Shown here: piece after piece, positions 4,995-24,719 of the stretch | Numbering within the stretch: position 1 is the first letter of the stretch | Layout: every line of letters starts with the position of its first letter | Assembly: GCF_022410465.1 (NCBI RefSeq) | Contig: NZ_JAJSON010000009.1 | Coordinates: 1-64,000 of the forward strand | Source: Christiangramia crocea | GTDB taxonomy: Bacteria > Bacteroidota > Bacteroidia > Flavobacteriales > Flavobacteriaceae | Direction: 5' to 3' | Length of the DNA stretch: 64,000 nucleotides | Notes under the pieces: model-generated | The model's input: the letters and a program-made list of their open reading frames with translations, nothing else | Told to the model about the DNA's origin: nothing | Databases searched by the model: none | Program-made: the position numbers and the translations under genes

Positions 4995-7900
4995 ATGCTG
5001 AGAATATTTTTTATAACAATAATATTTCTGATTTTTTATCCAACCATTCCTTATGCTCAGGAGAAGAATTATATATTTAAAAAATTAACTTCAGCAGATG
5101 GTCTATCTCAAAGTTCCGTAATTAGTATCCATCAGGATAAGTTAGGGCAGATGTGGCTTGGCACCCGTGATGGTTTAAATAAATTTGATGGAAGCAAATT
5201 TACGGTCTATAAAAATGTTCCCGATGATTCTTCGTCTATTAGTAATGATGATATATTATCTATTGAAGAAGATGAAGATGCCTTCATCTGGATTGGCACA
5301 TATAATGGTTTAAATCAATATAATCCTGAAACTAATAATTTCAAAACTTATTTTCACTCTAATAATAAGAATTCCTTAAGCAATAATACCATATGGAGTA
5401 TTGAAGTGATAAATAATGGAGAAATATGGCTTGGAACTACAAATGGACTTTCTATTTATCATAAGAATACTAAAGAATTTCAGAATTTGTTCCACTTTTC
5501 AAAGGATCCTACCAGCCTTCCCGATAACCATGTGCTTAGCATATTGCAAACCAAGAGAGGTGATATTTATGTTGGTACGGCAAATGGACTTGCCAGAGCA
5601 ATAAAAAGAGATGGGTCTTATTCTTTCAGAAGCTTAAAAAGGAATTTATATGTTCAGGATCTTATTGAAGATAGAGAGGGAAATGTTTGGGTGGCAACAA
5701 AAAATAAAGGTTTGTTTAAACTTTCCAAAGGAGCAGACAACCTTAATACCTTCAAAACTTCACAGGGAAATATAATTGATAATGATATAAGGTCTCTAAC
5801 AATTGATAATGCTGGAAGAATGTGGTTGGGAACTTATGAAGGCCTCAGAATTATCAATAGTGGAGGTAAAGTGGATAAAGTACTAAATAATCCATATAAA
5901 AATACAAGTCTAAGCAGGAATACAATCAAGTCTCTATATACAGATAGAAAGGGCTCAGTATGGATAGGGACATATTACGGGGGCATAAACATTTGGGATA
6001 ATGCCAATTCTAATTTTATTACTTATACTCAAGATGGGAGTAAAAATCAGCTTAGCTACGATGTAATAAGTTCAATTGAAAAAGATATATCTGGAAATCT
6101 TTATTTTGGAACTGAGGGAGGAGGTATCACCGTATTAAATAATAATAATGCAGAATATATTACTTCTTTTAAATTTAATAAATTACCCAGTGATAATATC
6201 AAAAGTCTGCTGGTTACAGGTCAAAAAATGTGGATTGGTACCTTTAACCAGGGTTTAGCAATATTTGACTTAAAAACTAAAAAATTCTTAAACGGTATAA
6301 TTTCAGAATCATTAAATGAATATTTAGCTGAAACGGGGGTATATACTATTAAAAGAGAGAATAAGGCTATTTTTTGGATCGGAACTTTTGGTAAGGGGGT
6401 TATTAAGTTCGATTCTATAGATAAAAGCTTTAGAACTTTTACAAGTGATTCAGATAACACCTATACTCTTACTAGTAACCAAGTAAGAAATATTTTAATA
6501 GACTCCAATAATTCGATCTGGATTGCAACAGAAAAAGGTCTCAATAAAATTGTATTTAATGATAATGAGGATAAATATATTATAGAGCATTTTTTTTATG
6601 ATAGTAAAGCTAATTCAGGAGAAGATATTCTTACTATTTTCGAAGATACCAAAGGTAGAATATGGATTGGCACAAAATCTAAAGGGCTCTTTTTACATAA
6701 TAAAAATTCGTTTCACTCTACTGGGATAAGAATCGATTCCGGGCCATTGGCTTCTCCTATACATTCCATACTTGAAGACGAAAGTAACACTCTTTGGATT
6801 AGTACAAATCACGGAATCGTAAATTATGATCCGGAAACCAAATCTGCAAATCTTTACAATCAGAATGAAGGACTTATAAGTAATGAGTTCAATAATAATG
6901 CGAGCTTAAAATTAAATTCCAGGCGATTTTATTTTGGAGGTCCTTCAGGGGTTTCTTCTTTTAATCCCCAGAATATAGTTACTAATAATTATTCGCCTCA
7001 GGTGCTTTTGACAGATTTCAGGATTAAAAGTGAATCTGTAGATGCTGATCAAAGAATATTGGATAGGAGTATTACCTATACCAAAGCAATAGAGCTGGCT
7101 TATGATGAAGCTAATTTTACTATAACATTCGCGATTCCTAATTATATAAATTCTACTAGCAATCAGTATGCATACAGGCTTGCGGGATTAGAAGAAGAAT
7201 GGAATAAAACCTTTAATAATGAGGCTAGCTATACTATACAGAATGCGGGGACTTATACCTTTGAAGTAAAGGGTGCAAATAATGATAATGTCTGGAATTC
7301 TCAGCCGACTAAATTACAAATTGATGTTCGACCAGCACCTTGGAAGAGTTGGTGGGCATTTGTAATTTACGCAGCTCTTATTGCTTTAGCCTTATATGGA
7401 TTAATTTGGATTATGAAATCCAAAACAAGATTGAAACATGAGCTAGAACTTGAACAGTTGGAACGGGAACGTAATAAAATGGCTAATAAAGCCAAATTAC
7501 AATTTTTCACCAATATTTCTCATGAGTTCCGAACTCCACTCACTTTGATTTTAGGTCCATTACAACAACTCCTTTTAAATTATAAAGGCAGTAATAAAAT
7601 GTATAAAAAGCTATTGGTCATAGAAAGTAATGCGCATCATCTACTACAGCTTATAAATCGATTAATGGATTTTAGAAAATTAGAAAATGACCAGTTTAAG
7701 ATAGAGGCAGCAGAAGGTAATATTGTTAAGTTCATAAAAGAAATTTATCTCTCGTTCAAGGAATTTGCCAACATTGGCAATTATAATTATACTTTTCATA
7801 CTTCAGATGATGAGATACTTGTTTTTTATGACAGGAGAAAACTGGAAAGAGTATTTTATAATCTTATTTCCAATGCTTTCAGGTACACTCCAAAAGGAGG

Positions 7901-21654: not shown

Positions 21655-21792
21655 GAGATAAAGATTTAAGTTATTACAAAGGGGGGAGTATTAGCCTTAC
21701 TTAAACCCATAGCTCCTGATAACAGGAAGGTAAATTGCAGAATCGGAGTTAAAACATTGAAAATCAGGTTTTAAAATTAAACAAATTATTCT

Positions 21793-21831
21793 AAAGCAGG
21801 AAGTTTATTGTTCAAAATGACCTCCTGCTTT
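21793..21831 (-). terminator. Terminator at the end of the TPP-riboswitch operon
   Basis: AAAGCAGGA (21793-21801) pairs with TCCTGCTTT (21823-21831). Read leftward it comes 22 bp after the last operon gene. A short A/T-rich tail follows, so it is moderately convincing. Confidence 0.5.
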
Positions 21832-21852
21832 TAAATTTGATTCAGGGAGAAT

Positions 21853-22131
21853 TCAGGATTCTTTCATGGCTGTAAGCCGGAAATTCTCAACAGATTTTCC
21901 TTTTAAGTGTTTTTTCCACTGATCCAGGAGGGGCTTTTCCAGTTCAAGTTCCCTGTATTCGTCAGGATTCATGATGGGGATCCCCTTAACTATAGGGTAG
22001 ATCCTTTGGCATTCTTTACAGCTTAAAAATCCTTCGATAATATTATCATCAATATCCTTTGTGATAACGGTCAATTCTATATCGGCCTTGTCAAATGGGC
22101 AGCAAATTTTTTCTATGGTCTTTAGTTTCAT
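21853..22131 (-). CDS. Trm112-like zinc-binding protein
   Basis: 92 residues. An N-terminal Cys pair (C10, C11, in ICCPFD), then C38 and C41 (SCKEC), followed by YPIVKGIPIM, is the pattern of the Trm112/YcaR family of small zinc-ribbon proteins. In eukaryotes and archaea Trm112 is the activating partner of several class I methyltransferases. The first gene of this operon is just such a methyltransferase, so a physical partnership is a reasonable inference. In the usual CPxC motif the last Cys appears as Asp (D14), but the extra C10 could substitute. It starts 3 bp after the stop of the ThiE-like gene and is last in the operon. Confidence 0.75.
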   Translation of the reverse strand: MKLKTIEKICCPFDKADIELTVITKDIDDNIIEGFLSCKECQRIYPIVKGIPIMNPDEYRELELEKPLLDQWKKHLKGKSVENFRLTAMKES

Positions 22132-22134
22132 TTT

Positions 22135-22767
22135 CTACAGGTTTAAATTTTTCAAATAATTCTGAATGGCTTCCTGTGGTCTGTCGGAATTCATGATGCC
22201 AGATACCACGGCCACTCCTTCATAATCCAGTTCGTTGAGTTTATTTATATTCTCAGGATTTATTCCACCAGCAAGGAATACCGGTAAAGAGCTTTTTTCT
22301 TTTGTTTTTCTAATAGTCTCGAAATCCACCAGTTCACAACTGTTGCTGGTGGAAGAGGGGAATATTGAGCAAAAGGAGATATAATCAAAACGGTTCTTTT
22401 CTGCCCAGCTAAGCCAGCTCAGATCATTATTGCAGGTTAACCCGGTTAAAAACTGTTTTCCGATCTTACGTCTTATCTTTTTTATGTCTTGAGGAATTTC
22501 ATCGAAGTGAACTCCATCAAGTGGAGCTTCTCCAAGCAGTTCCCATTGGTTGTTTATGAATACAGGAACGTCCCTGGAATGGCATAACTCACATATTTTA
22601 TCTATGAGTGGAATTATCTTTTGTCCTGCTTGAAAATTATCCCAGACCTGTACAGCCACAATTTTCTCCTGAAGTGCCTGTTCTATTCGTTTTAAAAGAA
22701 CAGTTTCTTCCATGGACGGGTCTACCACAAGGTAGATGCCTTTTTGTATGTTGTTCTTTATTTCCAT
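22135..22767 (-). CDS. Non-canonical ThiE/TenI-fold protein
   Basis: 210 residues of the thiamine-phosphate synthase/TenI TIM-barrel superfamily: DGVHFDE (84-90), YISFCSIFPSST (129-140, the F-P-[ST]-x-[ST] phosphate loop), FLAGGINPENI (164-174) and GVAVVSGI (184-191). Residues used by true ThiE are altered. The Q-x-R-x-K motif that binds HMP pyrophosphate reads QVWDN (40-44), and the Mg-binding I-N-D reads INN (71-73). It is therefore unlikely to be an ordinary thiamine-phosphate synthase. It could be a TenI-like isomerase, bind a related thiazole or pyrimidine, or do something new. It overlaps the AIR-synthase-like gene by 10 bp under TPP-riboswitch control. Confidence 0.75.
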   Translation of the reverse strand: MEIKNNIQKGIYLVVDPSMEETVLLKRIEQALQEKIVAVQVWDNFQAGQKIIPLIDKICELCHSRDVPVFINNQWELLGEAPLDGVHFDEIPQDIKKIRRKIGKQFLTGLTCNNDLSWLSWAEKNRFDYISFCSIFPSSTSNSCELVDFETIRKTKEKSSLPVFLAGGINPENINKLNELDYEGVAVVSGIMNSDRPQEAIQNYLKNLNL

Positions 22768-23801
22768 CCTGCATTCAAAGCTTTAAAAAAGGCTGCCCAG
22801 TATGGGTCAGTTTCATAATATCTCATTTTACCTACCTCTTCCTTTTTTGCCAGGTTAATACTGCCATCTGTGAACTCACCTACCCTGGTACACTGTATAT
22901 TCGCCCGCTTCAAACTTTCAATAATCTCATCTTCACTACCATTTTTACAGGCAATGATCATTGAGCCGGCCCCTATACAATACCTGGGGTCCAGAGAGAA
23001 AATTTTACACACTTCATTTTGAAGACGGCCTACCGGAAGCTGTTCATCATACACCATCACACCATTGTTTGAGGCTACGGCCATTTCATAAATCGCTCCT
23101 AAGACCCCCCCTTCAGTTACGTCGTGCATTGCGGTGACGTTTTCAGCATGGGCTTCCATGACCGTCAGGGCATCTTTTAATGAACTTGTATCATAGAAGG
23201 TTTCACAGGTTCTTTGATAGGTTTCCGCTCCGGCTCTGTTCTTTACCGTTTCAGGGAAACTCATTGCCAGGATCGCAGAAGATGAGATTGCACAGGATTT
23301 GGTTACCAGGATAGAATCTCCGGGTTGTGCATATTTGGAAATTTTGATCTTTTCTTTAGGAGCAATTGTAGTGAAAGTTCCTCCCCCGGCTATAGTGGAA
23401 TTCTGCCCTTCGATAAATCCGGTATGCCCGCCGGTTATGGCGAGACCTATTTTTTCGCAGAAATGATGGATATGATCCCAGTAGATCTGAAAATCTTTTC
23501 TGGAGAATTTCGCCGGCAGATTGAGTACAAACTGACCGAACATAGGCGCGAAACCGGTGGTAGCCATATCATTGGCCATAAGTTGCACAGAAAGCCAGGC
23601 AGACTCTTTCAGGCCTAAGGTTGGGATCAGTGATAGCGGGTCGCTGGTCATTGCCATGGCCATATTTCCCGGCAGATCAACCAGAGATACATCTACTCCA
23701 AATCCCGGCCCCACCAGAACATCATCCCTTTTATAGCCGCATTTATCCTTTATGAAATCATCTACCAGTGACCGGTCTATTTTGCCTGAAATTTCACCCA
23801 T
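22758..23801 (-). CDS. AIR-synthase/HypE/ThiL superfamily protein
   Basis: 347 residues of the PurM-like ATP-binding superfamily (PurM, PurL, ThiL, HypE, SelD). The N-terminal half has GPGFGVDVSLVDL (31-43), ESAWLSVQLMANDMATTGF and ITGGHTGF; the C-terminal half has MHDVTEGGVLGAIYEMA and a GAGSMIIAC-like strand. The overall shape is nearest to HypE and archaeal AIR-synthase-related proteins, not to ThiL in detail. These enzymes phosphorylate or activate a substrate carbonyl or phosphate with ATP. Its start overlaps the methyltransferase stop by one base (TGATG). Thiamine-phosphate kinase is one candidate because of the TPP riboswitch, but the substrate is unknown. No hydrogenase gene is present in the window. 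Confidence 0.75.
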   Translation of the reverse strand: MGEISGKIDRSLVDDFIKDKCGYKRDDVLVGPGFGVDVSLVDLPGNMAMAMTSDPLSLIPTLGLKESAWLSVQLMANDMATTGFAPMFGQFVLNLPAKFSRKDFQIYWDHIHHFCEKIGLAITGGHTGFIEGQNSTIAGGGTFTTIAPKEKIKISKYAQPGDSILVTKSCAISSSAILAMSFPETVKNRAGAETYQRTCETFYDTSSLKDALTVMEAHAENVTAMHDVTEGGVLGAIYEMAVASNNGVMVYDEQLPVGRLQNEVCKIFSLDPRYCIGAGSMIIACKNGSEDEIIESLKRANIQCTRVGEFTDGSINLAKKEEVGKMRYYETDPYWAAFFKALNAGWK

Positions 23802-24523
23802 CAGTCTATGTCATTAAACTGTATGTACAATCCAAAGAAATCTCCTATTGGTACATTCCATTGTTGAACAGGGAACCATTTTGGCAGGCCGGTACATTTC
23901 CATCTTATTGTGTATTCTCTTCCCTTAAGGGCTTCATGGATTATAGCAGTAAGTTTTTCCGGTGTATAGAAAGTGGCCGTAAGGTAAAATGGGTTCTTTC
24001 CAAATATCTCCTGTATCCTTCTTCTCACCACTTTAGGAGAATTCCGGTTCATCATTCCCATTGCGATCCCATATTTGCCAACTCTTGCAGCTTCCCTTAT
24101 CACCTTCACCGGATCTTTATAATATTCAAAAGTGGTAATAAAAGCAAGTGAATCAAAAGTATGATCCTTGAATGGCATGTGGTGTGAATCTGCCATCACC
24201 AGGTCTCCGTCAAAAAGATGAATGGCCTGCGAAAGCATCAGTGGTGAAATATCACCGCCGGTAGCTTCGATTCCTATTTCTTTCCACCAGCGGGTAAATC
24301 TTGTTGTGCCGCAGCCAAATTCGAGTAGGGTTTTTACTCTGGTATCGGCAGAAACGAGTTCTTCCATTACTTTTTTCTGCCAGACCTCGGCCCGTTTATA
24401 ACGTCCTTCATACCACTGTTCATAAGTGTCTGTATGTTCGCGATTAAAAAACCATTCCGGACGGTTCTGCCAGTTCTGCTGACTTTGAGGAATAAGGCCT
24501 TTTTGAGATTCTTCTATTTTCAT
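23801..24523 (-). CDS. Class I SAM-dependent methyltransferase, first gene of the TPP-riboswitch operon
   Basis: 240 residues with a Rossmann-fold methyltransferase core. Motif I is LLEFGCGTTRF (67-76), acidic residue D91 in GGDISPLML ends strand 2, then MADSHHMPFKDHTFDSLAFI (motifs II-III) and a post-core segment typical of Methyltransf_11 proteins. The N-terminal 60 residues are polar and Trp/Tyr-rich, possibly for substrate. It begins 77 bases downstream of a TPP riboswitch and is followed with one-base overlap by the AIR-synthase-like gene. A Trm112-like protein closes the operon. The substrate cannot be read from the sequence; a thiamine-related small molecule is suggested by regulation alone. 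Confidence 0.8.
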   Translation of the reverse strand: MKIEESQKGLIPQSQQNWQNRPEWFFNREHTDTYEQWYEGRYKRAEVWQKKVMEELVSADTRVKTLLEFGCGTTRFTRWWKEIGIEATGGDISPLMLSQAIHLFDGDLVMADSHHMPFKDHTFDSLAFITTFEYYKDPVKVIREAARVGKYGIAMGMMNRNSPKVVRRRIQEIFGKNPFYLTATFYTPEKLTAIIHEALKGREYTIRWKCTGLPKWFPVQQWNVPIGDFFGLYIQFNDID

Positions 24524-24531
24524 ATTGATTG

Positions 24532-24580
24532 CTTTAAAAACAAAACTTCATTTCATTGGATCATCCAACCGAAATGAAGC
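24532..24580 (-). terminator. Attenuator hairpin: expression platform of the TPP riboswitch
   Basis: Read leftward: a stem of CTTCATTTC (24579-24571) and GAAATGAAG (24554-24546) with an inner TTGG/CCAA pairing, followed by a U-rich tract (24545-24532) just before the methyltransferase start. It is the expected terminator arm that would form when TPP is bound. Confidence 0.8.
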
Positions 24581-24599
24581 ATAAAAAATAGATCTCTAG

Positions 24600-24680
24600 G
24601 CGGCATCCCTACGTTGGCATTATCCAAATCAGGTCGCGGGTGTATTCTCAGCCACGCTTTGACGTGGCACCCCGTGCATT
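24600..24680 (-). promoter_or_regulatory. TPP riboswitch (THI element)
   Basis: On the minus strand the conserved TPP-aptamer blocks appear in order: GGGGTGCC, a P3-like hairpin (CCACGTCAAAGCGTGG), GCTGAGAATACACCC, the CCTGAT pyrimidine-sensing loop, GGATAATGCCAACGTAGGGA, and a closing P1 strand (GCAC with GGATGC). The match to known aptamers is near-complete. It lies between a TAnnTTTG promoter and an attenuator hairpin, so thiamine diphosphate should shut off the four-gene operon 24523 to 21853. As the aptamer precedes no recognisable thiC, thiG or transporter gene, it marks the operon as an unassigned thiamine-linked function. Confidence 0.95.
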
Positions 24681-24688
24681 ATGTTTTA

Positions 24689-24719
24689 CAAACCTAGCTA
24701 ATTTTTTACAGCAAATCAA
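24689..24719 (-). promoter_or_regulatory. Promoter of the TPP-riboswitch operon
   Basis: Read leftward: TTG at 24719-24717, a 20-bp spacer, then TAGGTTTG at 24696-24689. This matches the flavobacterial TTG/TAnnTTTG promoter. Transcription would begin about 6 bases before the aptamer. The rest of the 502-bp gap 24524-25025 shows only A+T-rich sequence and the palindrome at 24993. Confidence 0.75.

Follow-up and report, generated by a model that had tools for sequence, protein, structure and literature searches.

A TPP-riboswitch operon without a standard thiamine gene in Bacteroidota: a possible new thiamine-linked pathway

The operon, its leader and its spread

Four tightly packed genes preceded by a thiamine pyrophosphate (TPP) riboswitch were found on the reverse strand of a 64,000-nucleotide stretch of Christiangramia crocea DNA (contig NZ_JAJSON010000009.1, positions 1 to 64,000), the whole of which is referred to here as the window. 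In the order of transcription, they encode a class I S-adenosylmethionine-dependent methyltransferase of 240 amino acids (aa) (MT; 23801..24523; PF08241, Methyltransf_11, 61.1 bits), a 347-aa protein of the HypE/ThiL/SelD/PurM superfamily (AIRS; 22758..23801; PF00586/PF02769, AIRS/AIRS_C, 35.2/70.4 bits), a 210-aa barrel of the ThiE/TenI fold (22135..22767; PF02581, TMP-TENI, 124.3 bits) and a 92-aa Trm112-like protein that is the predicted partner of MT (21853..22131; PF03966, Trm112p, 33.7 bits against a cut-off of 22). The open reading frames (ORFs) overlap by 1 bp and 10 bp and are then separated by a gap of 3 bp. Both this packing and the four protein families had been described in an earlier note made from the sequence alone; the same coordinates were recovered, and all four proteins scored above their Pfam cut-offs. 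Among the NCBIfam matches shown, none of them attained a named family's curated cut-off.

The tie of the operon to TPP through its control element is strongly supported. The aptamer (24589..24684, reverse strand, as are all features of the operon) matched RF00059 over model positions 1-105 of 105 with 62.3 bits (gathering threshold 54.3; E 7.7e-10). As a plain strand it folded no better than shuffles (z -0.41), so the evidence for it is that of the covariance model. Upstream, at 24689..24719, the promoter motif TTG-N20-TAGGTTTG noted before was read in the sequence, a form which we take to be the Bacteroidota consensus. The interval between the aptamer and the first start codon contains an attenuator-type hairpin with a T-run (24536..24580; fold z -2.68), followed by TTTTGTTTTT, and control by TPP is probably exerted through transcription attenuation. 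A terminator-like hairpin after the operon (21788..21836; fold z -3.17, inner stem of 12 pairs) folds well but has a weak T-run. Both an attenuator and a terminator had been noted earlier; a simple consensus terminator scan listed neither hairpin.

An alignment of AIRS was scanned against 84,980 species genomes, yielding 140 relatives. The best 80 of these 140 loci together with the window form the set of 81 loci studied here, which was selected by the AIRS protein and not by the RNA. An aptamer lies upstream in 81 of 81 loci, 74 of them recognised by a letter pattern (with which Rfam agreed in 14 loci besides the window) and the remaining 7 by Rfam; all 21 further operon loci submitted to Rfam besides the window were confirmed. 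A chance aptamer was rejected on the strength of this conservation. Relative to the counts expected from mononucleotide shuffles, a -7 box TAnnTTTG near the approximate aptamer start was found in 44 of the 81 loci (3.6 expected), the full promoter motif in 15 (0.5 expected), and a hairpin of at least 8 pairs with a T-run downstream of the aptamer in 48 (1.8 expected).

The gene order is kept across Bacteroidota, so the earlier note withstood both of its refutation tests that rest on sequence, the other being the RF00059 match. All four genes occur at 80 of the 81 loci, the exception (L086) being truncated by a contig end, and no gap exceeds 15 nt in 68 of the 72 loci where ORF calling recovered all four genes. 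The 80 scan loci all belong to Bacteroidota by their record titles; AIRS homologues beyond this phylum may sit among the other 60 of the 140 relatives. The presence of the operon is patchy, since a close AIRS homologue was found in six of the 149 genomes searched (the window's own and its relatives), namely the window's genome, three congeners, one further member of the family and another of the order. A quick tree of MT, AIRS and the barrel, in which 6 of the 81 rows were unassigned, splits all five orders having at least three rows, with at least 7 changes needed on well-supported branches for Flavobacteriales and 9 for Cytophagales. This mixing of orders suggests transfer of the cassette between them, with duplication and loss as alternatives. 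Two Arenibacter genomes carry two operon copies each (L016/L018 and L019/L020), every copy with its own TPP aptamer. Three other genomes (G191, G194 and G197; loci L080, L084 and L090) have a single TPP aptamer each under strict filters, at the operon, which may be their only TPP-switched locus.

Any fifth gene cluster was common to 8 loci of the 81 at most. When 21 thiamine-gene queries, labelled by a reading of their source operons (ThiC, ThiD, ThiE, ThiG, ThiH, ThiF, TenA-like, ThiM-like, PnuT and TPP-switched TonB proteins), were compared with all 1178 ORFs called at the 81 loci, within about 6 kb of either side where the contig was long enough, the operon's barrel was the only clear member found; the other matches were four weak similarities of TonB type, none above 65 bits. 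A remnant of a canonical thi operon was rejected on this search. No standard thiamine gene was recognised in the operon itself either, in agreement with what had been stated from the sequence.

Features of the four proteins

The barrel shares the fold of ThiE and TenI and keeps the Gln57, GG pair and Ser positions of ThiE, but has its pyrophosphate/Mg residues replaced and two invariant cysteines added. Its Gln40, presumably equivalent to Gln57 of Bacillus subtilis ThiE, is kept in 80 of 80 homologues and Asn72 in 77. At the positions of R59, K61, D93, D112 and K159, which we take to be the pyrophosphate/Mg residues of B. subtilis ThiE in its numbering, the homologues carry Trp (79/80), Asn (59/80) or His (19/80), Asn (73/80; Asp in 1/80), Pro (75/80), and Ala (61/80) or Ser (15/80), respectively. 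Cys133, Cys144 and His87 are invariant (80/80), and Asp89 is present in 78 of 80. Four canonical Bacteroidota ThiE proteins retained all five pyrophosphate/Mg residues and had neither cysteine (4/4). The barrel scored below the cut-offs for ThiE (TIGR00693; 115.6 vs 145.1 bits) and the TenI thiazole tautomerase (NF005819; 52 vs 251 bits), and it was rejected as the cell's ThiE on account of the lost pyrophosphate/Mg residues. With these residues gone, handling of hydroxymethylpyrimidine pyrophosphate (HMP-PP) by the barrel cannot be taken for granted, and judging from its sequence the barrel is unlikely to join HMP-PP to the thiazole.

AIRS homologues share 58-84% identity with the window's protein, whose structure model has a mean pLDDT of 91.7. 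Foldseek placed HypE first (3wjp, TM 0.77), followed by ThiL (0.70) and SelD (0.68), and HypE alone fell below 1e-6 in a profile search of PDB sequences. The C-terminal cysteine of HypE carries the carbamoyl group. AIRS shares the fold of the HypE/ThiL/SelD/PurM superfamily but differs from HypE in this cysteine, as none of the 81 homologues has a Cys within the last four residues, and it scored below the cut-offs for HypE (TIGR02124; 76.1 vs 251.6 bits) and ThiL (TIGR01379; 61.7 vs 184.15 bits). It is also set apart from ThiL in that operon genomes encode a separate ThiL besides AIRS; with such a ThiL present in 80 of 80 genomes surveyed, AIRS was rejected as the cell's ThiL. Distant AIRS homologues on plasmids were found in 106 records, six neighbourhoods of which were read. 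In all three Haloarcula plasmids read (L107, L109 and L154), a homologue of 31-32% identity, an AIR synthase family gene, is oriented divergently from genes for thiamine-binding and thiamine ABC substrate-binding proteins.

Among the three larger operon proteins, MT shows the strongest conservation: 31 other members are 68-86% identical to the window's protein, and the mean column identity is 80% over 32 members. The mean pLDDT of its model is 69.6, and residues 1-43 mostly score below 50. The first Foldseek match was 1VLM, and the archaeal Hvo_0019-Trm112 complex 6F5Z occupied ranks 5-6; the phmmer match to chain A of 6F5Z was weak (E 0.03). Further relatives are Bud23 (7wtw_q, E 1.5e-6 by sequence; 7wts_q, Foldseek rank 26) and the small-molecule enzymes AtmM and RebM. 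The Trm112-like protein matched 6zxw_H in the PDB and, as second best, 6f5z_C (E 1.2e-6), and scored below the Trm112_arch cut-off (NF038101; 61.1 vs 77 bits). Both chains of 6F5Z are therefore matched by the pair, from which the complex differs in that the operon's MT has a long conserved N-terminus, modelled with low confidence. A Trm112p domain is thus encoded beside a matching class I methyltransferase, as would be expected of a Trm112-dependent methyltransferase holoenzyme, and the two proteins are predicted to form a heterodimeric methyltransferase. No lead came from a PHROGs comparison or from the gene surroundings of distant MT homologues on plasmids of haloarchaea, where 2 of 28 records were read.

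These relatives of MT bear on the main rival to a role in thiamine metabolism, namely that the operon is a response to TPP shortage in which the MT-Trm112 pair modifies RNA or protein, with the other two proteins helping, and thereby spares TPP-dependent steps. The likeness of MT to the Trm112-dependent rRNA enzyme Bud23 and to Hvo_0019 is consistent with such a response, as is its conservation above that of the other larger proteins. However, the small-molecule enzymes among its structural relatives speak for another kind of substrate, and a barrel in which Gln57, the GG pair and Ser of the ThiE pocket are retained, encoded with a protein of the ThiL/HypE superfamily, indicates small-molecule chemistry. 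We therefore consider RNA or protein modification fairly unlikely.

Thiamine genes of the carriers and other TPP-switched loci

The thiamine genes of 51 operon genomes (50 of about 78 with fetched loci, and the window's genome) were compared with those of 29 operon-negative relatives drawn from one family. ThiC was present in 6 of 51 operon genomes vs 3 of 29 relatives, a ThiD-family match of at least 148 bits in 6 vs 4 (the next best match having 64.7 bits), and TPK in 10 vs 2. ThiL above its cut-off was found in all 51 operon genomes and all 29 relatives, one copy (in G177) being split over two frames. In addition to the operon's barrel, 12 operon genomes had a TMP-TENI match above 40 bits, and the other 39 had none. 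The window's genome, which is 3.9 Mb in size and 100% complete, has no ThiC and no TPK, encodes ThiL elsewhere and has the operon's barrel as its only TMP-TENI match. A missing thiC was rejected as an explanation of operon presence, the two groups showing no contrast, and so was ThiL, which all 80 genomes possess. Most operon carriers are probably unable to make vitamin B1 (thiamine), and likewise most of the sampled non-carriers.

With ThiC and a clear ThiD missing from 45 of the 51 operon genomes, it is unlikely that thiamine is made from HMP. The interpretation offered in the earlier note is partly supported. Its thiamine link is strongly supported, and the making, modifying or clearing of a thiamine-like compound would fit, with two corrections, on HMP-PP and the barrel and on thiamine from HMP. 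The same gene content bears on a synthesis of thiamine phosphate (TMP) from imported precursors, with the barrel as a divergent ThiE and AIRS as a divergent ThiD or ThiL. Such a synthesis would fit the 39 genomes in which no TMP-TENI protein other than the barrel exceeds 40 bits, as well as the universal presence in the operon genomes of ThiL, which needs TMP. It is nevertheless improbable, given the replacement of R59, K61, D93, D112 and K159 in nearly all 80 barrel homologues, the 45 genomes without ThiC and clear ThiD, and the six in which the operon stands alongside ThiC, ThiD and a canonical ThiE; it also leaves MT and Trm112 unexplained. Moreover, within the window's genus the 17 genomes without the operon have ThiL and no TMP-TENI protein, so TMP must have another source there.

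Forty other TPP-switched regions, 38 of them from operon genomes, were chosen from among the matches listed. A TonB-receptor cluster accounted for 25 (24 from operon genomes) and a PnuT cluster for 9 (8 from operon genomes), one member of each cluster having been checked in Pfam. In the window's genome, a second TPP aptamer of 42.4 bits, below the gathering threshold, lies upstream of a TonB receptor; a further RF00059 match (G000:C27:59268; 31.5 bits) was taken as chance, there being no gene of at least 100 aa downstream on the same strand within several kb.

Some of these regions contain other genes of note. A protein of about 340 aa that resembles acyl-CoA dehydrogenase follows the TPP-switched PnuT in six regions of operon genomes (L139, positions 294-1884; L142, L143, L145, L146 and L150) and in one of an operon-negative genome (L153), and L133 has a homologue in two ORFs; the L139 protein, the only one tested, had no Pfam match. 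A small AAA-type NadR-like kinase (reverse strand, 6849-7400; PF13521) adjoins the TPP-switched PnuT in L138, and another that is similar by inspection (L102:1559-2119) has a TonB receptor and a gene of the ThiE family nearby. Such kinases are possible candidates for a thiamine kinase feeding ThiL in genomes without TPK. In four Arenibacter-type genomes (L099, L100, L101 and L106), another divergent ThiE-family protein adjoins a putative old-yellow-enzyme oxidoreductase.

A possible salvage or repair pathway

Chemistry on a small thiamine-like phosphate is suggested because the operon combines a ThiE-like barrel with a protein of the ThiL superfamily. The best explanation is a TPP-repressed pathway that salvages or repairs such a compound, mostly in B1-auxotrophic hosts, and in our judgement it stands about evenly between right and wrong. 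Low TPP would turn the four-gene cassette on, and TPP bound to the leader would turn it off. MT and the Trm112-like protein would act as a heterodimeric methyltransferase, and AIRS would spend ATP to activate an oxygen or a phosphate of a small molecule, like PurM, HypE and ThiL. The barrel has kept phosphate-loop glycines and a Gln that we take to be those of the ThiE pocket; with Trp, Asp and two Cys at the former pyrophosphate/Mg end, it might isomerise, bind or redox-process a thiamine-like or thiazole-like phosphate. Jointly, the four proteins would serve the salvage or repair of a B1-related compound not usable by the ordinary pathway. In favour of this explanation are the aptamer at all 81 loci, the conserved gene set, the mostly auxotrophic hosts with their universal ThiL, the TonB-receptor and PnuT clusters at other TPP-switched loci, the residue changes of the barrel, the matches to 6F5Z and the thiamine-transport genes beside the Haloarcula homologues. 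That the pathway is a new one is something we infer.

Several points weigh against this explanation. By sequence, salvage looks no different from another use. Auxotrophy is no precondition of the operon, as six operon genomes possess both ThiC and ThiD; nor does it set the carriers apart, the operon-negative relatives, a control from one family, being equally poor in ThiC (3/29). Six of the 38 TPP-switched regions of operon genomes lead into no recognised thiamine gene. Three of the six plasmid neighbourhoods of distant AIRS homologues are without a thiamine gene; the Acaryochloris homologue is near hydrogenase-maturation genes, the Haloferax homologue adjoins cobyrinate genes, and the Halobacterium one is near neither kind.

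A more far-reaching possibility, which we place somewhat short of probable, is that the cassette constitutes a wholly undescribed branch of B1 metabolism that has spread between Bacteroidota orders. One form that it might take is the repair of ring-opened or oxidised thiamine phosphate. AIRS would then activate the N-formyl oxygen with ATP and close the thiazolium ring by PurM-type chemistry, while the two-cysteine barrel would hold the phosphate together with the thiol or disulfide. The part of MT-Trm112 would be to add or protect a group.

The operon could conversely reflect a gap in annotation, with unrecognised members of known families carrying out a known step of vitamer salvage. All four proteins do fall in known superfamilies, but in the NCBIfam matches shown they all stayed below the curated cut-offs of named families, and ThiD and ThiE, presumably needed downstream in the known pyrimidine and thiazole salvage, are absent from most operon genomes, which makes a gap of this kind distinctly unlikely. 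The production of a thiamine analogue as an antivitamin or signal under thiamine scarcity is highly improbable, for although methyltransferases produce analogues such as bacimethrin and the patchy spread and order-mixing tree suit an accessory trait, no conserved fifth gene, and hence no gene for export or self-resistance, lies beside the operon.

The operon can be set against the TPP regulons described in Bacteroidota. A study of thiamine in Bacteroides names three TPP-switched operons in B. thetaiotaomicron, namely thi biosynthesis, OMthi and pnuT-tnr3 (PMC5613172). The four-gene operon resembles these regulons (thiSEGCHF-tenI, OMthi and pnuT-tnr3) in its leader aptamer and tight arrangement, but contains none of their genes and four others instead. 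In a 2013 regulon survey, in which Bacteroidota are represented by Bacteroidaceae, TPP-switched genes were classed as thiamine synthesis or transport (PMC3766115). A 2024 coastal survey recorded several Bacteroidota groups without currently described B1 synthesis and transport systems (PMC10881298), and another source deals with an alga (PMC9870897). Papers on Riemerella and riboswitches gave no lead. No account of the four-gene operon was found in the open-access literature among the matches listed, which does not establish that it is unpublished.

B1 auxotrophy is usually judged from thiC, thiE, thiG and known transporters. A TPP-controlled operon without those genes, in hosts that mostly lack thiC, thiD and canonical thiE, is a candidate for the missing use of vitamers. 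It also supplies a barrel of the ThiE fold whose cysteine site is new, and places a bacterial MT-Trm112 pair in a metabolic context. The four-gene set suggests that a part of B1 metabolism is still undescribed.

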